A DNA stretch of 41,193 nt from Deltaproteobacteria bacterium. GTDB lineage: Bacteria > Desulfobacterota > JAJRXV01. Both the position numbers and the translations under genes were made by a program. Positions 1,471 through 37,731 of this stretch are shown here, piece by piece; positions within the stretch are counted from its first letter, which is position 1, and each line of letters begins with the position of its first letter. The notes below the pieces were generated by a model, which did not search any database, had not been told where the DNA came from, and saw only the letters and a list, made by a program, of their open reading frames with translations. The stretch covers positions 1-41,193 of the forward strand of contig JAJRZU010000119.1 in assembly GCA_024275075.1 (NCBI GenBank), given 5' to 3'.

Positions 1471-1499
1471 TTGAATTAGGTATATAATTTTGCTATAAT
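1471..1499 (+). promoter_or_regulatory. Sigma-70-type promoter for the citrate/2-oxoglutarate cluster
   Basis: TTGAAT (1471-1476) and TATAAT (1494-1499) are separated by exactly 17 bases, and TGC directly before the -10 makes it an extended -10 element. Transcription would start near 1506, about 25 bases ahead of the synthase start codon. It is the best promoter match I found in the window. Confidence 0.7.
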
Positions 1500-1531: not shown

Positions 1532-3322
1532 ATGAGATCTATGACAGAACGAAAATTTACGTTGAATAACGTACGGGAACCAAATCTATACAGGGAGATA
1601 TTCCCTTATGACACCGTATGCAAGCTGACATTTGAAAACGAATCCGTCGATACTGACATGCCCAAGGATATCTTTATCACTGATACCACTTTCCGTGACG
1701 GTCAGCAGGCGAGGCCGCCGTATAAAATCGAGCAGATCGTGAAAATATACAAATATCTTCACGCCTTGGGCGGCCCTAATGGCGTGATAAGGCAAAGTGA
1801 GTTCTTCTTATATACCGATAAGGATAAGAAGGCGGTGGAGAAGTGTCTTGACAAAGGGTACGAGTTCCCCGAGGTCACAGGTTGGATAAGGGCGGTAAAA
1901 AGGGACTTTCAGATCGTCAAGGAGATGGGTCTCAAGGAGACCGGTATCCTGACCTCGGTATCGGATTATCACATATTCCTGAAACTGAAAAAAAACCGGC
2001 GCCAGGCGATGGACGGGTACCTTGATGTCGTACGCACCGCGCTGGAGGCGGGCATCAAGCCAAGGTGCCACTTCGAGGACGTAACGCGGGCGGATATCTA
2101 CGGTTTTTGTATCCCGTTCGCTATCGAGCTGATGAAGCTGTCCAAAGAGAGCGGCATACCGATCAAGGTAAGGCTTTGCGATACGATGGGTTATGGTGTG
2201 CCATTCCCGACGGCGACGCTGCCAAGATCAGTCCCTAAGCTTATCCACGCGTTCAGGAAGGACGCCGGTGTACCAGCCGCCCTGCTTGAGTGGCATGGTC
2301 ACAACGATTTCCACAAGGTGCAGGTAAACGGCGCGGCGGCGTGGCTGTATGGTTGCGGCGCTGTCAACGGCGCTCTGTTAGGGCTCGGTGAGAGGACGGG
2401 CAACCCACCGATAGAGGGCATGATCATCGACTATATCAGCATAAAGGGCGAAAACGGGATCGATACGCCTGTCATCACGGATATCGCCAACTATTTCAGG
2501 AAAGAGATGCGGGTACACATACCGCATAATTACCCCTTCGTCGGTGAGGAGTTCAATTCCACAAAGGCGGGTATTCACGCTGACGGTATCTCGAAGAACG
2601 AGGAGATATACAACATATTTGATACAAAGAAACTGTTGAAGCGGCCGGTGGTCGTCGCGATAACCGATAAATCCGGTCTCGCCGGTATCGCCCACTGGTT
2701 CAACAGCCAGTCGAATATAATCAATGTAAGGCGGGTCAGCAAACTGCACCCGGGAATCGCGAAGATGAATGAGTGGATCCAGAAGCAGTATCTCCACGGA
2801 AGGGTCACGTGCGTCTCGAATGAAGAGATGGAGAAGCTCGCGAAGAAGTACCTCCCTGAATATTACGTTTCACAGCTTGACAGGATAAAAGATCGTGCGC
2901 GTCATCTCGCAGAGGGGATAATAAAGGCTGTCTGCAAAAAATCAGGTATCCGGTCGATGGATCACGAGCTTCAGGAACCTGTCCTTAAAACCCTCATCTA
3001 TGATAATCCGTTCGTGCAGTTCGCCTACATCACAAACGACGCCGGTATCAAGACGACGCGAAACATCACCGCGCATGTGAACAAATCGATCTATGAGAAG
3101 ATCGGTCTGCATGAGGACTTTTCGAACAGGGAGTGGTTCTTAGGCCCGATAGAGGACGGGAAGGTGCATATCAGCGACCTGTTCTCGTCTTACTTCACCG
3201 GTGAGCTGTGCCTCACGGTATCCGCACCGATACGCGACAAAGCCACGGGCATCATCAAAGGTGTTGTCGGGCTGGACATAAAGTTTGAACATTTAGCGAA
3301 AACAGAGGATGAGAAAGAGTAA
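1532..3322 (+). CDS. DRE-TIM acyltransferase (isopropylmalate/homocitrate/Re-citrate synthase family) with C-terminal Cache-like domain
   Basis: A 596-residue enzyme that condenses an acyl-CoA with a 2-oxo acid. The DRE-TIM barrel shows DTTFRDGQQ (51-59; catalytic Arg and metal-binding Asp), the metal-binding pair HGH (255-257) and GLGERTGN (284-291). A helical linker follows to about residue 490. Instead of the LeuA regulatory domain, residues 492-596 look like a Cache/PDC ligand-binding domain: DFSNREWFLGP, HISDLFSSYFTGELCLTVSAP and GVVGLDIKFEHL are in the usual Cache order. There is no signal peptide or membrane segment, so the domain would be cytosolic. The gene is first in a cluster with LeuC- and LeuD-type subunits 3 and 21 bases apart, and an isocitrate dehydrogenase downstream. 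No leuB is present. My inference is a Re-citrate-synthase-like enzyme; homocitrate or isopropylmalate synthase are alternatives. Start is ATG 1532 behind AGGGAAAAGGG; ATG 1541 is also possible. Confidence 0.85.
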   Translation: MRSMTERKFTLNNVREPNLYREIFPYDTVCKLTFENESVDTDMPKDIFITDTTFRDGQQARPPYKIEQIVKIYKYLHALGGPNGVIRQSEFFLYTDKDKKAVEKCLDKGYEFPEVTGWIRAVKRDFQIVKEMGLKETGILTSVSDYHIFLKLKKNRRQAMDGYLDVVRTALEAGIKPRCHFEDVTRADIYGFCIPFAIELMKLSKESGIPIKVRLCDTMGYGVPFPTATLPRSVPKLIHAFRKDAGVPAALLEWHGHNDFHKVQVNGAAAWLYGCGAVNGALLGLGERTGNPPIEGMIIDYISIKGENGIDTPVITDIANYFRKEMRVHIPHNYPFVGEEFNSTKAGIHADGISKNEEIYNIFDTKKLLKRPVVVAITDKSGLAGIAHWFNSQSNIINVRRVSKLHPGIAKMNEWIQKQYLHGRVTCVSNEEMEKLAKKYLPEYYVSQLDRIKDRARHLAEGIIKAVCKKSGIRSMDHELQEPVLKTLIYDNPFVQFAYITNDAGIKTTRNITAHVNKSIYEKIGLHEDFSNREWFLGPIEDGKVHISDLFSSYFTGELCLTVSAPIRDKATGIIKGVVGLDIKFEHLAKTEDEKE

Positions 3323-3325
3323 AAT

Positions 3326-4585
3326 ATGGGAAAAACTATAGTTGAAAAAATAATTTCCGCACATACCGGTAAAGAAGTGAGCGCCGGTGATTTTGTCGTA
3401 GCCGACGTTGACGTCGTGCTGGCTCAGGACGGGACGGGGCCGCTGGCGGTCAGGCAGATCGAAAAGATGGGGTTCGATACGGCGGCGCTGCCGGAAAAAA
3501 CGGTGCTGTTCTTAGACCATGCCGCGCCCAGCCCGAAAAAGGAGCTCTCTAACGACCACATCACCCTGCGAAACTTCGCGAGGAAGACCGGTGTGCAGGT
3601 ATCTGACATCGGTGACGGTGTCTGCCACCAGGTGATCCCTGAAAAGTACCTTAACCCGGGCGAGATACTCATCGGCGCTGACTCTCACACATGTACAGGC
3701 GGCGCGCTGGGCGCTTTCGCGACCGGTATGGGCTCAACGGATGTCGGTGTCGGGATCGCCATGGGCAAGACATGGCTCAGGGTACCCGAAACATTCTTGT
3801 TCAGGATAACCGGTGAGTTCCAAAAGGGTGTCTACCCCAAGGACCTCATCCTGCACATTATCGGTACTATCGGTGCGGACGGCGCCACATACAAGGCGAT
3901 GGAGTTTGCCGGCCCCGCTATTAAGGCGATGGAGATGACCGACAGGATGACGCTGAGCAATATGGCGGTGGAAGCCGGTGCGAAGTGCGGACTCATCGCG
4001 TCCGACGCTGTGACGAAGACGTTCCTTGTCGAGCGCGGCAGAGGCGATAAATTCGTCAGCATAACCGCCGACGAGGACGCGGTTTACGAGAAGGTGTTTG
4101 ATATCGATGTCTCGGGGCTGAAACCAACCATATCGTTCCCGCATAAGGTCGATAATACAAGGACGATCGATTCTCCTGACTGCGCCGGCGTAAAGATAGA
4201 CCAGGTATTTATCGGTACCTGCACGAACGGCCGCATCAAAGACCTTCGGATCGCGGCGGGTATGCTCAAGGGCAGGAAACGGCACCCGGACACGAGGCTG
4301 ATAGTCACCCCTGCATCAAGGGAGATATACGGCCAGGCGCTCGAAGAAGGTGTTTTGAAGATATTCAACGATTTCGGCGCGTCGATCAACACGCCCGGTT
4401 GCGGCGCCTGCGTCGGTGTCCACCAGGGCGCGCTCGGTGACGGTGAGCGGTGTCTCGCTACCCAGAACCGGAACTTTCAGGGCAGGATGGGTAACACAAA
4501 AGGGTTCATATACTTAGCGTCACCGGCTGTTGCCGCGGCAACGGCGATCGAGGGCGTTATCGCAGACCCGAGAAAATACTTATAA
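3326..4585 (+). CDS. LeuC/HacA-type hydro-lyase large subunit (probable aconitase of the citrate cluster)
   Basis: A 419-residue [4Fe-4S] dehydratase large subunit of the aconitase superfamily, in the short prokaryotic LeuC/homoaconitase form. Cluster ligands are C299 (IGTCTNGR), C359 and C362 (TPGCGACVG); GADSHTCTGGALGAFATGMG (118-137) is the conserved active-site stretch. With the small subunit encoded next it would isomerise a 2- or 3-hydroxy tricarboxylate. Family members act on isopropylmalate, homocitrate, citrate or methylmalate analogues, and the large subunit does not decide which. The partner synthase and the isocitrate dehydrogenase downstream favour citrate to isocitrate. It starts 3 bases after the synthase stop, so it is surely co-transcribed. 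Confidence 0.9.
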   Translation: MGKTIVEKIISAHTGKEVSAGDFVVADVDVVLAQDGTGPLAVRQIEKMGFDTAALPEKTVLFLDHAAPSPKKELSNDHITLRNFARKTGVQVSDIGDGVCHQVIPEKYLNPGEILIGADSHTCTGGALGAFATGMGSTDVGVGIAMGKTWLRVPETFLFRITGEFQKGVYPKDLILHIIGTIGADGATYKAMEFAGPAIKAMEMTDRMTLSNMAVEAGAKCGLIASDAVTKTFLVERGRGDKFVSITADEDAVYEKVFDIDVSGLKPTISFPHKVDNTRTIDSPDCAGVKIDQVFIGTCTNGRIKDLRIAAGMLKGRKRHPDTRLIVTPASREIYGQALEEGVLKIFNDFGASINTPGCGACVGVHQGALGDGERCLATQNRNFQGRMGNTKGFIYLASPAVAAATAIEGVIADPRKYL

Positions 4586-4606: not shown

Positions 4607-5104
4607 ATGATATTACAGGGAAATTCATGGAAATTTGGTGACGATATAAGCACAGACCACATTGCGCCCGGGCGGCTCTTCCATCTCAGGTCAAACCTGC
4701 CGGAATTAGCGAAGCATGTTCTGGTGGACGCAAGGGAGGATTTCGCCCCGAACGTGAAAAAGGGCGATTTTGTCGTTGCCGGCAGTAATTTCGGGCTCGG
4801 CTCCTCGCGGGAACACGCCCCGACAATAATAAAGATAGCCGGTGTGAGCGCGGTAATCGCAAAATCGTTCGCACGGATATTCTTCAGGAACTGCGTAAAT
4901 ATCGGCCTGCCAGCGATCATCGCGGATACGGATAAGATAGATGAGGGCGACAAGCTTGAGGTCGAGCTCTCCGCGGGTGTGATCAACAACGTGACAAAGG
5001 GTATAAAGCTGACCTTTTCTCCGCTGCCTGACGTAATGACCAGGATCCTCGCAGATGGAGGGCTGGTGGAGCATATCAAAAAGAACCAGGGATTTAACCT
5101 ATAA
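4607..5104 (+). CDS. LeuD/HacB-type hydro-lyase small subunit
   Basis: A 165-residue small subunit (swivel domain) partnering the preceding gene. It begins with DDISTDHIAPGRLFHLRSN and carries the substrate-binding motif GSSREHAP (65-72). In archaeal relatives the loop after the first PG sets specificity: hydrophobic residues favour isopropylmalate, an Arg favours tricarboxylates such as homoaconitate. Here the loop (about 22-30) is RLFHLRSNL, with Arg residues, which fits a citrate-like substrate better than isopropylmalate, although the loop is one residue longer than the archaeal ones I compare with from memory. The gene sits 21 bases after the large subunit, with AAGGAT before its ATG. 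Length is normal for the family. Confidence 0.88.
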   Translation: MILQGNSWKFGDDISTDHIAPGRLFHLRSNLPELAKHVLVDAREDFAPNVKKGDFVVAGSNFGLGSSREHAPTIIKIAGVSAVIAKSFARIFFRNCVNIGLPAIIADTDKIDEGDKLEVELSAGVINNVTKGIKLTFSPLPDVMTRILADGGLVEHIKKNQGFNL

Positions 5105-5280: not shown

Positions 5281-5372
5281 TAAACAATAATGAGAAAAAT
5301 TCTCTGGTTATGTACAATATTTATATCATTAACAAAATTATTTCGGAGTGGAATTTTATCATAGGAGATACC

Positions 5373-6620
5373 ATGTCAGAATATAAATTATCAAAGCCGC
5401 CGGTAGTCGGGGAGAAGATAACCGTAAGGAGCGACAATTCATTAGCGGTGCCCGATAACCCGATAATACCTTTCATAGAGGGGGACGGCATCGGGGCGGA
5501 CGTCACGAAGGCCGCGCTTTTTGTGATCGATTCCGCGGTCAAAAAAGCTTATGGTGACAAAAAGATGATCTCATGGTTTGAGATATTCGCCGGTGAGAAG
5601 GCGTACAATCTATGCTGTGAGTGGCTGCCGGCGGAGACGCTCAGGGCGATAACGGAATATTGTGTGGCGATAAAAGGGCCGCTCACCACACCGGTCGGCG
5701 GCGGGATAAGGAGCCTTAACGTCGCTATCAGGCAGAAGCTTAACCTGTACGCGTGCGTCAGGCCGATACGGTACTTTCGCGGGGTACCGTCACCGGTGAA
5801 AGAGCCTGAAAAAGTGGACGTTGTCATATTCAGGGAGAACACCGAGGACGTATACTCTGGTATAGAGTTCGCACAAGGGAGTGACGAGTGCGTAAGATTG
5901 ATAGAGTTCCTGCGCGACAGTTTTGGCATAAACGTCCTGCACGATTCTGGTATCGGCATCAAACCGATCAGCAAGACAGCGACGAGCAGGCTCATGAAGA
6001 TGGCGGTTTTATACGCTAAGAAGCACGGTTTGAAGAGCGTGACGTTAGTCCACAAGGGTAACATAATGAAATTTACCGAGGGCGCCTTCAAAGAATGGGG
6101 ATATGAACTTGCAAAATCAGAATTTGATGATATAACTATAACAGAGGATGAAGTTTATAAAGATCATGACGGTAAAGTCCCTGAAGGGAAGATACTCATC
6201 AAGGACAGGATCGCCGACGCGATGTTCCAGCAGCTTTTGCTAAGACCAGAAGAGTATGACGTCCTTGTAATGCCGAACCTGAACGGTGACTATATGTCAG
6301 ACGCCGCGATCGCACAGGTAGGCGGGCTCGGGCTCGGACCCGGTGCGAACATCGGTGAGAAGGCGGCGGTATTTGAGGCGACGCACGGCACGGCGCCAAA
6401 GTACGCGGGTATGGATAAGGTGAATCCGGGCTCGCTCATACTCTCGGGAGTGATGATGTTAGACCATCTCGGTTTCAACGAAGCGGCGACGGTAATAGTG
6501 GACGCTTTGCAGAAAACGATTTTACAAAAGCGGGTCACCTACGATTTAGAACGGCTCATGGACGGCGCGACGCTTCTGAAGTGTTCGGAGTTTGCCAAGG
6601 CGATCGTTGAAAATATGTAG
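5373..6620 (+). CDS. icd: NADP-dependent isocitrate dehydrogenase
   Basis: Converts isocitrate to 2-oxoglutarate with reduction of NADP. The 415-residue protein is close to the Escherichia coli type (416 residues). It shows the substrate loop [14 protein letters not shown] with the Ser that is phosphorylated in E. coli (S114 here), [21 protein letters not shown]-like [12 protein letters not shown], and [15 protein letters not shown]-determining residues are present: Lys-Tyr in APKYAG and Tyr and Arg in [10 protein letters not shown]. The open frame extends 21 codons further up, but MSEYKL at 5373 has AGGAG (5363-5367) at the right distance and matches the family N-terminus. With the preceding three genes it completes a route from oxaloacetate to 2-oxoglutarate, although a 268-base spacer suggests it may have its own promoter. 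Confidence 0.95.
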
Positions 6621-10553: not shown

Positions 10554-10572
10554 AATTTGATTGTGGGGGAAT

Positions 10573-12246
10573 ATGAAAGTGTGCCTGAAGGCAAGCTTAT
10601 TGCGTCTCTTTTTATGCAGTGTTTCCGTGGCGTTTGCCTGCTTCCTTGTGTCTATTGACAGCTCATTTGCCAGAGATACTCTCGATCAGGGCTTGAACCT
10701 TATAGAAGAGACCTCAAAGATGACCAGGGAGATCGTCACTTATGACAACCCGCACCTGAAACTTGACTGCAATAAGTGCCATAAAGGCAAGGTAACCAGG
10801 CGTACAAAGAAAAGGGATGTTAAGCTTAAGTTTAAATATGTAGTGGAGCTTTGTGATTCATGCCATAAAGGAGCGAACCTTCATCCCGTCGGTGTTACCC
10901 CCTCAAAAGTGGAGCCGCCGATAGAAGTGCCTAATTATCTGCCCTTAGGTAAAAAGGGTAAATATAAGAATAAAGTCATCTGCACGACATGCCATGAGAT
11001 ACACGTCAAGAGGACGTCAAATTACTTGTTAAGAGGTTTTGCGGGCAGCTCGTCCGCGATGTACGCTAAGTTCAAGAACCACCAGGATTTCTGCTTTTCA
11101 TGCCATAAGGAGAACCTTACTAAGCGCTCGCCTCATGAGGGTGATGAAAAGGCCTGCGTCTTTTGTCACATCACTGACCCTGAGTCTTCTGACAATCCAG
11201 AGACGACTGTCAGGCTGGATATAATAAGGCGATGCAATTTCTGCCACATGAAATTGCAAGGGGCGCATTTCCTTGCCGTAAACGCTTTTGCCGATAAGAC
11301 ACTTCAAGAAGATATACCCGGCCTGAAACTCCCGTTCATCGGTGGGAACATCACTTGCGTCACATGTCATGACCAGCACTTCGAATCAACGCTCCCGCAT
11401 AAATTGCGGCCCGCGTTCGTCAGTTTCGCCGAGCAATCGGTCAGGATCAACCCGCACTGGACTGGTACGTTTTGTCTGACATGCCATGACAAGGTGCCGA
11501 AGAAGGGCGAGAAACCGACATTCCTGTTTGACGGTGACATAACGCTTGTCTGCAACAGGTGCCACGAGACTGAGGAAGCGACGGCAGACATTCACCCTGT
11601 GGACATGGCGCCGCCGGACAATGATTTTGTACAGGTACCGAAGAAATTCCCGTTATGGAACGGGGTTGTGACTTGTACGACGTGCCATGACCTCTCCACC
11701 CAGACCGAAATAAATGATAAGGAGCGGCGGCGGAACCCGCTATTCTTGCGCTACGGCCCTTACGAGACCAGAAACGACATCTGCTTTAGCTGCCATAACC
11801 CGCAGACTTACGAACAGCAGTCTCCCCATGTTCAGCTTGATGACGATGGTAATATTGTCGATGCGAAATGCCTCTTTTGCCACTCTTCGCGCCCTGATGT
11901 AAAGGTGGCCGGGATCAGGCCGAAGATGTTCAAAGGCGATGTATCCACGTTTTGTTTCGGCTGTCACTCCGGTAAAGATGAGAAACATCCAGTGGGGGTA
12001 ACGCACCAAGGCGTGACGCCATCAAAAGACAGGGTGAAATGTATGAAAAAATCCGAGAAAGTAAGAAACCTGTCTCTTCCTTTATACGAGGGGAACCTCT
12101 TTTGCGGGACTTGCCATAACCCGCACCAGGCGGGCGTATTAAAAGGGAACGCCGCCGCGGGTGCGGGGAAAGCGGAGAAACTGAAACTCCCCAAAGGTTT
12201 TGAGATGTGCGTCGCCTGCCACTGTGATAAAGGTTCCTTGGAATAG
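10573..12246 (+). CDS. Exported 15-haem c-type cytochrome
   Basis: A 557-residue protein with an N-terminal signal peptide (hydrophobic core LLRLFLCSVSVAFACFLV, likely cut after SSFA). It has fifteen CXXCH haem-attachment motifs (CNKCH, CDSCH, CTTCH, CFSCH, CVFCH, CNFCH, CVTCH, CLTCH, CNRCH, CTTCH, CFSCH, CLFCH, CFGCH, CGTCH, CVACH), so it acts in the periplasm or at the outer membrane in electron transfer. The chain is built of repeats: a module with HPVG/HPVD, a G-x-V-x-CTTCH motif, FCFSCH and C-x-FCH recurs, the last copy being shorter. No enzyme-specific motif of nitrite, sulfite or hydroxylamine reductases was seen. ATG 10573 is chosen because GTGGGGGA lies just upstream; the TTG at 10561 has no ribosome-binding site. 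Confidence 0.92.
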   Translation: MKVCLKASLLRLFLCSVSVAFACFLVSIDSSFARDTLDQGLNLIEETSKMTREIVTYDNPHLKLDCNKCHKGKVTRRTKKRDVKLKFKYVVELCDSCHKGANLHPVGVTPSKVEPPIEVPNYLPLGKKGKYKNKVICTTCHEIHVKRTSNYLLRGFAGSSSAMYAKFKNHQDFCFSCHKENLTKRSPHEGDEKACVFCHITDPESSDNPETTVRLDIIRRCNFCHMKLQGAHFLAVNAFADKTLQEDIPGLKLPFIGGNITCVTCHDQHFESTLPHKLRPAFVSFAEQSVRINPHWTGTFCLTCHDKVPKKGEKPTFLFDGDITLVCNRCHETEEATADIHPVDMAPPDNDFVQVPKKFPLWNGVVTCTTCHDLSTQTEINDKERRRNPLFLRYGPYETRNDICFSCHNPQTYEQQSPHVQLDDDGNIVDAKCLFCHSSRPDVKVAGIRPKMFKGDVSTFCFGCHSGKDEKHPVGVTHQGVTPSKDRVKCMKKSEKVRNLSLPLYEGNLFCGTCHNPHQAGVLKGNAAAGAGKAEKLKLPKGFEMCVACHCDKGSLE

Positions 12247-13019: not shown

Positions 13020-14825
13020 TCATATTCCGTGGCAGTATTGGGTGCAGCCCGGGTTCGCCTGGGGCAGGACTGTCTCCACGTTCCTCATGTGGCATTCCTG
13101 GCACTCGCTGTCCCCTTTAAGCGTGACGTAGAGTATGTGGTACGTGTTCCGCCACACTGCGTCCTGCTCGTGCGATTCATGTATCGCTGCGTTATCTCCG
13201 GTATACTCGACCAATATGTCATACTTTTGCGCACCATAATCATCGGTATCCGTATGGCAGTCGCTACATGGGTGCGGTACCGGCGTCATCCCCAAATCTG
13301 CCATATTATCACTTGAGTGCGGGGATATCACGTTAAACGTATGGCTTCTTATGTCATATTCATCCGCCGAGCCAGCTGTTTTAAACATGTGGCATTCAAT
13401 GCAGTTACTCGTATGGAACTCATCTGGCGAGTATGGGTGCTTAGTGTGCTTTATCACCTCTGTCTTAATATTGTCATACGAATCCTCATTGGTTACAGCC
13501 GCTACATCGTTCGTTGAGATATTCTCGAAAGGTTCGCGCCCCGCGTGGCACGCAAGGCAGAGTGTATTGTCATCGGCGCTCACATTCACCGTCTGACCTG
13601 ATACAGTCAAGCTACTTACGAGATCCGCCTTGTTATCCGAGCCATGCGGGTCATGGCATGTGAAACATGTCGGCAGCGATGACGGGTCGCCGCCGGCGCC
13701 CGGTGAATGGGCGCCATTGTTCAGGTCAAGGAACTGCTGGTAGTTTGAGCGTGATGTTATGAAGGAGCCGTCTGACGAATCATAGCCCCAATAGTCGCCC
13801 GGGTCGCTCGTCGGTGTGATGTAATCGCTTAGTACGCCGCCTAAGGGGTAGCCCAGGATATCGCCTGACGCGTCGTCATACGCCGGGAACAAGAGCCTGT
13901 TTTTCGATACCGGTCCCGCTGTCGCCGCCGCGCTCTCTCCCCTGATATGGCAACTGCCGCACACTTCATTCGCTCTTTTTAGGCCGCTGACACTGCCATC
14001 TGCGAGGTCTTTCGGGTTTAATGTGTCAACGCCGACCCCGCCGCCTTTGTCGTTGTGACTCCTCCCCGCGCCGTGGCATGTCTCACAACCGGTGTTCAGC
14101 TCGACATAACCGGTCAGATATTCACCGGTTGCGTTGTCGTACCAGATGAAGATACCGGTGTTGTGGCAGCCGGCGCACATCCGTTCGAAGGAATCGTACG
14201 CCCGCCCGGCGGATACCGGCGTCTTGCCGGCGGTGTCGTATATCGGCGAGTCGCTCTCGTCGTACCAGTTATCGCCCATGAATAGTGAATATGTCTTCGA
14301 TGCTTCGTTGTAGCGAACGGGTAGGATATAGTAGCACTTACCTATCTTTGTCATGTAGACCTGCGAAAAAATACCGTTACCGCCATATACCCTGTCCACG
14401 TTGTAGCTGACCTCACCGATTGTCATCGTATATTTTCCGGCGCCGGAGTCATACCCCAAAACCGGTGCGTTTGCGCCGTACCTGTGGAATTCTGAGGAAC
14501 TGTCATCGCCGCCTAAATCAAGGCCATCTTTGAAATCATCCGTACCATTATCGTTGGCGTCGGCGACGATACCTTTACCGGTCAGACCGCGCTGGTCGGC
14601 GTCCCTTACGGACATGTTGTGCAGTGTGCCGCGCCAGCTCTCATATTTTACCAGATGGCAATCTTTGCATGAATGCGAACCGGCGTATTCTGACGGCTCA
14701 CCGAGCTGCGGGTCACCGGGGTTGACGTACCCGACGAGAGTCTCGGATATATTGTTGCCGCCGCAGGCAACGATAAAAGCGATTAGTGATATCGCCAGCG
14801 CGATAAGGTTTCTATTTTTTCTCAT
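13020..14825 (-). CDS. Ten-haem c-type cytochrome lipoprotein
   Basis: A 601-residue lipoprotein: the signal ends in a lipobox IVAC-GG, so it is anchored in a membrane facing the periplasm or cell surface. Nine CXXCH motifs (CKDCH, CAGCH, CETCH, CGSCH, CFTCH, CLACH, CIECH, CSDCH, CQECH) are followed by a C-terminal CTQYCH with three residues between the cysteines, giving up to ten haems. SCKDCHLVKYESWRGTLHN resembles the entry haem of cytochrome c554-like multihaem proteins. Long haem-free stretches (about residues 60-210) contain Gly/Asp/Tyr-rich sequence, perhaps a separate beta domain. The start overlaps the end of the upstream helical-repeat gene by 14 bases, so both are expressed together. 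It ends in TGA. Confidence 0.9.
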   Translation of the reverse strand: MRKNRNLIALAISLIAFIVACGGNNISETLVGYVNPGDPQLGEPSEYAGSHSCKDCHLVKYESWRGTLHNMSVRDADQRGLTGKGIVADANDNGTDDFKDGLDLGGDDSSSEFHRYGANAPVLGYDSGAGKYTMTIGEVSYNVDRVYGGNGIFSQVYMTKIGKCYYILPVRYNEASKTYSLFMGDNWYDESDSPIYDTAGKTPVSAGRAYDSFERMCAGCHNTGIFIWYDNATGEYLTGYVELNTGCETCHGAGRSHNDKGGGVGVDTLNPKDLADGSVSGLKRANEVCGSCHIRGESAAATAGPVSKNRLLFPAYDDASGDILGYPLGGVLSDYITPTSDPGDYWGYDSSDGSFITSRSNYQQFLDLNNGAHSPGAGGDPSSLPTCFTCHDPHGSDNKADLVSSLTVSGQTVNVSADDNTLCLACHAGREPFENISTNDVAAVTNEDSYDNIKTEVIKHTKHPYSPDEFHTSNCIECHMFKTAGSADEYDIRSHTFNVISPHSSDNMADLGMTPVPHPCSDCHTDTDDYGAQKYDILVEYTGDNAAIHESHEQDAVWRNTYHILYVTLKGDSECQECHMRNVETVLPQANPGCTQYCHGI

Positions 14826-17867: not shown

Positions 17868-18044
17868 TTACGGTCTCTTTTTAAATGATACCGTAAAAGT
17901 CGATCCGACATCTCTTTGACTGCTGACGGTGATCCGCGCGTCATGATCCGCGACAACCTTCTTTACAATCGCCAGCCCGACACCGGCGCCGGCTACCTCG
18001 ATGTCTTTAACCATGTGGAATAATTTGAATATTTCGCCTGTCAT
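17868..18044 (-). pseudogene. C-terminal remnant of a histidine kinase ATPase domain
   Basis: A 58-codon frame encodes the end of a GHKL ATPase domain: EIFKLFHMV, then GAGVGLAIVKKVVADHD (the G2 box) and DVGSTFTVSF, the usual final strands. The start ATG overlaps the stop of the sensor fragment (ATGA), in a different frame. The dimerisation (HisKA) domain and the N and G1 boxes are missing between the two pieces, so about 150 or more codons have been deleted from one kinase gene. The piece cannot bind ATP alone. Confidence 0.75.
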
Positions 18045-18568
18045 ATCCGCCCTGCCTTCTTAAATACCCCCATCGAGAAGAGCAGGCCTGTGTCACCCTT
18101 ATCCACGCCTTTAAATTGAATAAGCTGTATGTTCATATAATCAGGGTCCTGTTTCTCTTTGATTTTTATAAAATATTTCCTTGAAGAGAAGTTTTCATTG
18201 ATAAGCTGCGGGGCACTCATGGTGTACTTAAGTATGCCGTCCCCATCTAAAAAACCAAGATCATTGGCGTTTAGCCTCTCGGCGTTGCGGTAGATATTTG
18301 CAAATTCTTTGGCTAAATTTTTTTCTCCTGAATAATAACCATGTGTTATAATTTCTTCTGCAACAAACGATAAGAGCAGCCTAATTGAATTGATATCGTT
18401 TTTGACTGCAATTACAGGAGTTTTCGATACTTCTGTCATTAAGTTTAAGAACTCTTTTTTTGCGCCGTCATGAACTCTATTTTCTGTAAAGTAAGAGAAC
18501 CAGATAACTAACACGATGATGGAGGTCATTATTATCGAGATAAAAACAATGTATTTTTTTCCTAACAT
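18041..18568 (-). CDS. Sensor (Cache) half of a truncated histidine kinase
   Basis: A 175-residue protein with an N-terminal transmembrane helix (YIVFISIIMTSIIVLVIWF) followed by an extracytoplasmic Cache/PDC-like domain: EEIITHGYYSGEK, LGFLDGDGILKY and NFSSRKYFIKIKEKQDPDY are in the usual order. It stops at KKAGRI, before the second transmembrane helix and the kinase core expected after such a domain. The next 58 codons encode only the tail of a kinase ATPase domain in another frame, so this is the surviving front of a kinase with an internal deletion. GGAG precedes the ATG. It might still be made as a membrane-anchored binding protein, but it cannot signal by phosphotransfer. A receiver gene lies 148 bases upstream. 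Confidence 0.7.
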   Translation of the reverse strand: MLGKKYIVFISIIMTSIIVLVIWFSYFTENRVHDGAKKEFLNLMTEVSKTPVIAVKNDINSIRLLLSFVAEEIITHGYYSGEKNLAKEFANIYRNAERLNANDLGFLDGDGILKYTMSAPQLINENFSSRKYFIKIKEKQDPDYMNIQLIQFKGVDKGDTGLLFSMGVFKKAGRI

Positions 18569-36387: not shown

Positions 36388-37731
36388 ATGAACATTATTA
36401 AAAACTATATCTACAAGTTCAAGGATCCGAAAGACCCTGCGGCGAGGTTGACAATGATCAGCTTTACGCTTATCTTTTGCGCGGCAATCATCATCGGGAG
36501 TTTCTTGAGCTACTACTTGTCGTACCAGCTACAAAAACATTACGCTAACACTACGAGTCACCTGATAAAGCAATATGTAAAAGAACGTTTCAAAGAGACC
36601 GACTTCATAGCGAAGGAGAAAAAAATTGATTCATCCAACCGGTACTTCAGCGATTCATTGCTGCAGATGAAGAGTCTGTTGCAGATCGTGGGGCTTAGTA
36701 TCTTCGATGCTTCTGGTAAACTCATCTGGGCAGACGAGGGGCTGAAAAGAGCCGGTGAGATAACTGACATAGAAGAAGCCTTAAATGGCGAAATAGATTA
36801 CGGGTTTGCCAGAATACCAACTAATGGGAAGAAGAAAGTGTTTTATGTGACCGTACCTGTAAGCTTTGCCGGTACGGATGAAGTAACCGCTGTTTTTGAA
36901 GTCATGATGAGCCATTACGATTTTTCAAAAAACACGTTGATCGGCTGGATAATAATCTGGCTCTTCAGCATCATAGGCGGCGCGATTATCTATTTCATGT
37001 TCACTGGTGCGATACGGAGGACGTACCAGCAGAACCTGGTGCTGCAACATGAGCTGATCCAGTACTCCCAGGAGCTGGAGTCTAACATACAGGTGATCAC
37101 CGATGTGCAAAACGTCGCTATCTTAGGGCTGTCGAAGCTGGCGGAGTACCGTGACAAGGAGACCGGTCAGCACCTTGAGAGGATGAGCCTGTATAGCAGG
37201 ATGCTGGCCGAAGAGCTCTCCATGTGGGACGGATACAAGTTCTACATAACGAAATACTATGTTGACTCCATATTTACCTCCGCCGTGCTGCATGACATCG
37301 GTAAGGTCGGGATACCTGACCATGTCCTTTTGAAGCCGGGTAAATTAAACCCCGAGGAGTGGGAGATAATGAAAAAGCACACGACAATCGGCGGCGACGC
37401 CCTGAAAGCGGCAGACAGGCAATTAGGCATCGAGTCGTTCATGACAATCGGTAAAGAGGTCGCTTACTTCCACCATGAAAAATATAACGGCGCGGGCTAC
37501 CCGAATGGCCTGAAAGGCGAGGATATTCCGCTCTCCGCACGGATCGTCGCGTTTGCCGATGTCTTTGACGCGTTGACTTCGAAGCGGGTATACAAACCGG
37601 CATTCGATTTTGATAAGACCAAGAAGATATTATTAGCGAGCAGGGGGGAGCATTTTGCACCGGATCTCGTCGACGCGTTCCTGAAGATCGAGAGCACATT
37701 CTTAGAAGTGGCTGATAAATTTAAAAACTAA
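36388..37731 (+). CDS. Membrane-bound HD-GYP protein (probable c-di-GMP phosphodiesterase)
   Basis: A 447-residue protein with two membrane helices (about 23-45 and 184-206) around an extracytoplasmic sensor region of about 140 residues. A cytoplasmic HD-GYP domain follows: HDIGKVGIPDHVL (HD at 302-303), KHTTIGGDAL, FHHEKYNGAGYPNGL (GYP at 370-372) and FADVFDALTSKRVYK, all metal ligands present. HD-GYP enzymes of this type cleave cyclic di-GMP to pGpG or GMP. The sensor region (SIFDASGKLIWADEG) resembles a Cache/PAS-like fold but is not assigned. GAAGG is 13 bases before the ATG, farther than usual. Confidence 0.9.
   Translation: MNIIKNYIYKFKDPKDPAARLTMISFTLIFCAAIIIGSFLSYYLSYQLQKHYANTTSHLIKQYVKERFKETDFIAKEKKIDSSNRYFSDSLLQMKSLLQIVGLSIFDASGKLIWADEGLKRAGEITDIEEALNGEIDYGFARIPTNGKKKVFYVTVPVSFAGTDEVTAVFEVMMSHYDFSKNTLIGWIIIWLFSIIGGAIIYFMFTGAIRRTYQQNLVLQHELIQYSQELESNIQVITDVQNVAILGLSKLAEYRDKETGQHLERMSLYSRMLAEELSMWDGYKFYITKYYVDSIFTSAVLHDIGKVGIPDHVLLKPGKLNPEEWEIMKKHTTIGGDALKAADRQLGIESFMTIGKEVAYFHHEKYNGAGYPNGLKGEDIPLSARIVAFADVFDALTSKRVYKPAFDFDKTKKILLASRGEHFAPDLVDAFLKIESTFLEVADKFKN

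Follow-up and report, generated by a model that had tools for sequence, protein, structure and literature searches.

Re-citrate synthase (EC 2.3.3.3; C. kluyveri/Syntrophus type) is the enzyme of anaerobes that lack Si-citrate synthase, and it uses the same DRE-TIM barrel as the protein described here. LeuA, CimA, and homocitrate synthase belong to the same catalytic superfamily, and Re-citrate synthases are frequently misannotated as homocitrate or isopropylmalate synthase (PMC12016533). LeuA and CimA likewise have a C-terminal regulatory domain, LeuA_dimer. In the gene studied here an unrelated Cache domain occupies that place. Re-citrate synthase orthologues of Planctomycetes and Firmicutes end near residue 440–460, whereas this gene adds a Cache domain of 150 residues.

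Cache domains have been described as the chief extracellular sensors in prokaryotes, with signaling outputs only (PMC4822843). PctA, Tlp3, and Mlp37 (dCache_1/MCP-like_PDC_1), together with KinD, have the same fold as the domain found here and the same R-x-W-[FY] ... [YF] ... D pocket pattern. Their Caches are extracytoplasmic parts of membrane receptors, whereas here a single cytosolic Cache sits on an enzyme. The C-terminal domain of YkuI (PF10388) is likewise an intracellular Cache joined to a catalytic (EAL) domain, and it is among the top fold matches. YkuI, however, is a c-di-GMP signaling protein and not a metabolic enzyme, and the PF10388 match in our protein falls below the cut-off.

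We read the gene at 1532–3322 (+) of the window, the 41,193-nucleotide stretch of DNA that was analyzed, as a Re-citrate synthase carrying a cytosolic Cache domain, a variant of a known enzyme. Its 596 codons are open throughout, with neither stop nor frameshift, and an alternative in-frame start lies at 1541. The HMGL-like (DRE-TIM) catalytic domain (1673–2491, residues 48–320) matches PF00682 with an E-value of 3.6e-27. A helical region follows the barrel (2492–2866, residues 321–445), and Cache-less orthologues stop within or just past it. Together with the long helix at its N-terminus, the Cache domain occupies 2867–3310 (residues 446–593). PF22673 (MCP-like_PDC_1) matches residues 507–589 (E 5.1e-10; 40.2 bits, the curated cut-off being 27), while a dCache_1 match is sub-threshold (29.3 bits against 45). 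The Pfam search found no match to LeuA_dimer (PF08502) anywhere in the synthase. Hydropathy reveals no membrane segment, the 19-residue maximum being 1.22.

The predicted structure agrees with these profiles. An AlphaFold model of residues 440–596 has a mean pLDDT of 86.9, and its best 50 PDB matches are all Cache/PDC-type sensor domains. The fold consists of a long N-terminal helix (448–468) and then a PAS-like sheet, as in the Cache superfamily. The full-length model (pLDDT 89.3) most closely resembles homocitrate and isopropylmalate synthase structures. At E ≤ 0.001, each of the 69 non-redundant homologues matches PF22673 as well as dCache_1, and a profile built from their C-terminal 157 residues matches the sensor domains of Tlp3, KinD, PctA, PctC, and YkuI among solved structures.

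A preliminary description of this DNA had proposed an intact DRE-TIM catalytic domain, supported by the PF00682 match and the conserved catalytic positions, and a tail unlike LeuA_dimer that is instead a Cache domain, within a cytosolic protein. Each of these points is borne out by the Pfam profiles, the homologue profiles, the predicted fold, and the hydropathy plot. Both the fold search on the predicted structure and the comparison of Cache with LeuA_dimer profiles, which it had named as checks, came out on the side of Cache. Its placement of the domain at residues 492–596 needs correction. Because the modeled helix at 448–468 runs into the Cache fold, the domain begins at about residue 446 (nucleotide 2867), and it ends at 593 (nucleotide 3310). 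The synthase–Cache architecture departs from both statements in PMC4822843, as it has no membrane segment and its partner is an enzyme. An extracytoplasmic location and a signaling output are the usual context of Cache domains and not part of the definition of the fold.

The pocket of the domain can be compared residue by residue with that of PctA. The motif R533-x-W535-F536 (3128–3139) aligns with PctA R126, W128, and Y129. The F551(Y)-x-S553 step (3182–3190) aligns with Y144 and D146, and D582 (3275–3277) aligns with D173. Among the 69 homologues, W535, S553, and D582 never vary, F536 and R533 hardly vary, and 66 have Y or F at position 551. When the 146 Cache columns are ordered by conservation, five of the motif positions take ranks 1, 3, 5, 15, and 24 (Mann–Whitney p 3e-4; p 0.003 when the sixth, non-conserved position is included). 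That sixth position, the place of PctA Y121, is E528 here and ranks 118 of 146. The dCache_1AA motif (PctA Y121, R126, W128, Y129, Y144, D173) is therefore kept at five of six positions, and the protein falls outside the full motif.

In PctA, R126 binds the amino-acid carboxylate, and D173 is a key ligand contact common to amino-acid and amine receptors (PMC10104139). Since the pocket residues R533, W535, F536, S553, and D582 belong to the most conserved ones, the bound ligand is likely a carboxylate. It is not securely an amino acid, because PctA Y121 has no conserved equivalent and PctA D146 is replaced by serine. The KinD sensor domain, one of the fold matches, was crystallized with pyruvate. 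It has the Y-x-S step in common with our Cache, and the position mutated in KinD R131A aligns with R533. Retention of D582 would point to an amino acid and S553, as in KinD, to an oxo- or hydroxy-acid; the residues are compatible with both.

The synthase heads a citrate-to-2-oxoglutarate operon, and we consider it likely that it is a Re-citrate synthase whose Cache domain is a small-molecule regulatory site. Through this domain a metabolite probably acts as a switch for the entry reaction of the citrate pathway, in what would be allosteric control. The synthase, a Re-type anaerobic enzyme with a homocitrate/isopropylmalate-synthase-type fold, would condense acetyl-CoA and oxaloacetate. A cytosolic carboxylate metabolite would bind the Cache domain, held by R533 and an aromatic box of W535, F536, and F551 and touched by S553 and D582. 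Binding would then alter the activity or assembly of the synthase by way of the helix at residues 448–468. The leading candidates for ligand and direction of control are glutamate, 2-oxoglutarate, or citrate, as products of the branch acting in feedback, and pyruvate or oxaloacetate acting in feed-forward. Glutamate feedback is attractive because glutamate is one end product of the branch supplied by the operon, but this is a guess.

Cache domains commonly dimerize. The domain might be a structural or dimerization module that has lost ligand binding and merely stabilizes the synthase oligomer, which we regard as unlikely. Consistent with such a role, evolution is faster in the Cache (mean column entropy 1.75) than in the catalytic part (1.11). 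The domain has also been gained or lost several times; some lineages can therefore do without it, and its role could be mostly structural. Cache-less orthologous Re-citrate synthases exist, and the domain is therefore optional for catalysis. The 22 sampled conserved catalytic positions, including R55, D56, H255, and H257, are identical in 91 homologues with the Cache and 30 without, a set of 30 that includes one Lentisphaeria sequence (L099) actually cut by an assembly gap. A pure scaffold, however, would be expected to keep its core and interface, whereas the best conserved Cache columns here are ligand-pocket positions.

A tree built from the catalytic part shows five changes of the Cache label, with at least four of them forced by well-supported branches. 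The tree is unrooted, as the LeuA/CimA outgroup is too distant and its branches are saturated (length about 10), so that gain and loss of the domain look alike. The Lentisphaeria homologue L099 (6001–7975) has runs of N interrupting its Cache. We rejected it as a Cache-less case, since the end of its Cache lies behind the assembly gap and this is no true loss, and it was left out of the set of label changes. Distances in the catalytic part and in the Cache are correlated (Spearman 0.77, where 300 permutations peak at 0.22), as expected of a long-lived unit. This fits an old fusion passed on as one piece, with losses in places or with losses combined with transfer.

Where the domain came from is suggested by its nearest non-enzyme relatives. 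A search of 39 genomes, our own and its relatives, with the C-terminal profile (E ≤ 1e-8) returned, besides synthases, one protein: an MCP-type chemoreceptor with a C-terminal Cache (E 7e-33). In this protein, L127:3452–5041 (−), the Cache stands at the extreme C-terminus. Through its Cache domain we reached six further members of the same group in other genomes of the phylum (L148–L153). L149–L152 have an MCP signaling domain and then a terminal Cache, with no obvious membrane segment. L153 is an MCP with a C-terminal Cache and a membrane segment near its N-terminus, and L148 is a fragment. These chemoreceptors, mostly predicted to be cytosolic, carry the closest non-enzyme Caches found, and they have the RxWF, the YxS, and the final D in common with the synthase Cache. 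Their output is chemotaxis signaling, whereas that of the synthase is catalysis.

The C-terminal Cache chemoreceptors look like sensors of an intracellular metabolite. Because most of them lack a membrane segment, the Cache domain was probably already cytosolic. The preliminary description had seen an extracellular sensor reused inside the cell; with these relatives in hand, we judge the transplantation of a periplasmic sensor to be less likely. A more speculative extension, possible but doubtful, is that one cytosolic C-terminal Cache subfamily reads a single intracellular metabolite for both chemoreceptors and Re-citrate synthase. If so, the same sensor would set chemotaxis in some anaerobes and gate the entry of carbon into the oxidative citrate branch in others. 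Finding the ligand of the synthase Cache would also inform on the cytosolic chemoreceptors with the same domain.

The identity of the enzyme itself depends on several lines of evidence. The genome contains no Si-citrate synthase (PF00285). Across the 39 genomes, Re- and Si-citrate synthase genes are nearly mutually exclusive, with 17 genomes having only the Re gene, 15 only the Si gene, 3 both, and 4 neither (Fisher p 9e-5). The three relatives with both genes (G006, G008, and G021) run against this general exclusion. LeuA and CimA are encoded by separate genes elsewhere in the genome, each passing its own cut-off and each with a clear LeuA_dimer match. The synthase reaches none of the NCBIfam equivalogs for isopropylmalate, homocitrate, or citramalate synthase, with a best score of 137 of 463 bits.

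An indirect link to a characterized enzyme comes from Kuenenia. The Kuenenia homologue (L107) is 59% identical in the catalytic part and lies directly 5' of genes that read as sucCD. A K. stuttgartiensis gene in a sucCD setting has been proposed as Re-citrate synthase, with a reported identity of 55.1% to its C. kluyveri counterpart (PMC8027424). Tracer data in the same paper partly conflict with that proposal and call for biochemical proof. The tie to a biochemically proven Re-citrate synthase would thus run through the published identity of the K. stuttgartiensis gene.

Would another product fit better? Homocitrate, 2-isopropylmalate, or citramalate in place of citrate is very unlikely. Among NCBIfam models and PDB structures, homocitrate and isopropylmalate synthases do come closest, and the aconitase subunits of the operon are LeuC/LeuD-like and match homoaconitase-type models. 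The scores, however, fall far under every equivalog cut-off, the genome has its LeuA and CimA elsewhere, and the operon dehydrogenase is isocitrate-type by an equivalog model. Moreover, with Si-citrate synthase missing from the genome, the aconitase and isocitrate dehydrogenase of the operon would have no citrate synthase to serve them. On these grounds we rejected all three assignments. Given the operon, the lack of Si-citrate synthase, the separate LeuA and CimA, the equivalogs that were not reached, and the Kuenenia homologue, Re-citrate synthase is by far the best reading and the most likely one, its Re-stereochemistry included by inference. The preliminary description gave a generic label, acyl-CoA/oxo-acid synthase; the operon, the missing Si-type gene, and the LeuA and CimA genes elsewhere narrow it, most likely to Re-citrate synthase.

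The downstream genes are arranged as a citrate-to-2-oxoglutarate series on the same strand. An aconitase large subunit of LeuC/HacA type (3326–4585) starts 3 bases past the synthase stop codon. A LeuD-type small subunit (4607–5104) follows, and then an NADP-dependent isocitrate dehydrogenase (5310–6620) that scores above the cut-off of the equivalog model TIGR00183. A promoter-like site, TTGAAT-17-TATAAT with a TG ahead of the −10 box, lies at 1471–1499 (+); such sites are not above chance region-wide. An identical or similar gene set lies 3' of the synthase at four other loci (L048, L061, L062, and L067), and isocitrate dehydrogenase follows the synthase in several Desulfovibrio loci. At many other loci the synthase stands without that downstream set.

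The fusion of synthase and Cache recurs widely, within the phylum and beyond it, as a survey of homologues establishes. Across 198 genomes of the same phylum, the full architecture is present in 92 of 94 full-length homologues (50–82% identity; counted by hand from the homologue list), and the C-terminal part is missing from the other two. When named genomes were scanned, the full architecture turned up in Thermodesulfobacteriota, Nitrospirota, Spirochaetota, Elusimicrobiota, Omnitrophota, Lentisphaerota, Auribacterota, and Margulisiibacteriota. The fusion is kept across at least eight phyla. Cache-less versions of about 450 residues occur in Planctomycetota (Brocadiales), Bacillota (Lachnospiraceae, Paenibacillus), and a few lineages in between. 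That a frameshift or assembly error united two genes in this fragmented assembly (179 contigs) can be dismissed, because the reading frame is uninterrupted and the same architecture recurs in nearly all full-length homologues within the phylum, with at least seven further phyla showing it too, isolates among them. We found no description of the fusion in the literature searched, which largely excluded subscription literature, and it may be visible in domain databases.

In many anaerobes, a Cache domain is here conserved within an enzyme of central metabolism. This suggests how organisms lacking Si-citrate synthase control the entry into the citrate pathway. The natural orthologues with and without the domain, which have the same catalytic residues, make the question of regulation directly testable.

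Several other genes of the window were noted. Two proteins rich in CxxCH heme motifs, at 10561–12246 (+) and 13020–14825 (−), are multiheme cytochromes by eye. A 175-residue ORF at 18041–18568 (−), without a Pfam match, looks receptor-like and has a membrane stretch at its N-terminus; it may be the truncated N-terminal portion of a membrane sensor. The membrane protein encoded at 36388–37731 (+) has an HD domain (PF13487) at its C-terminus and is HD-GYP-like.
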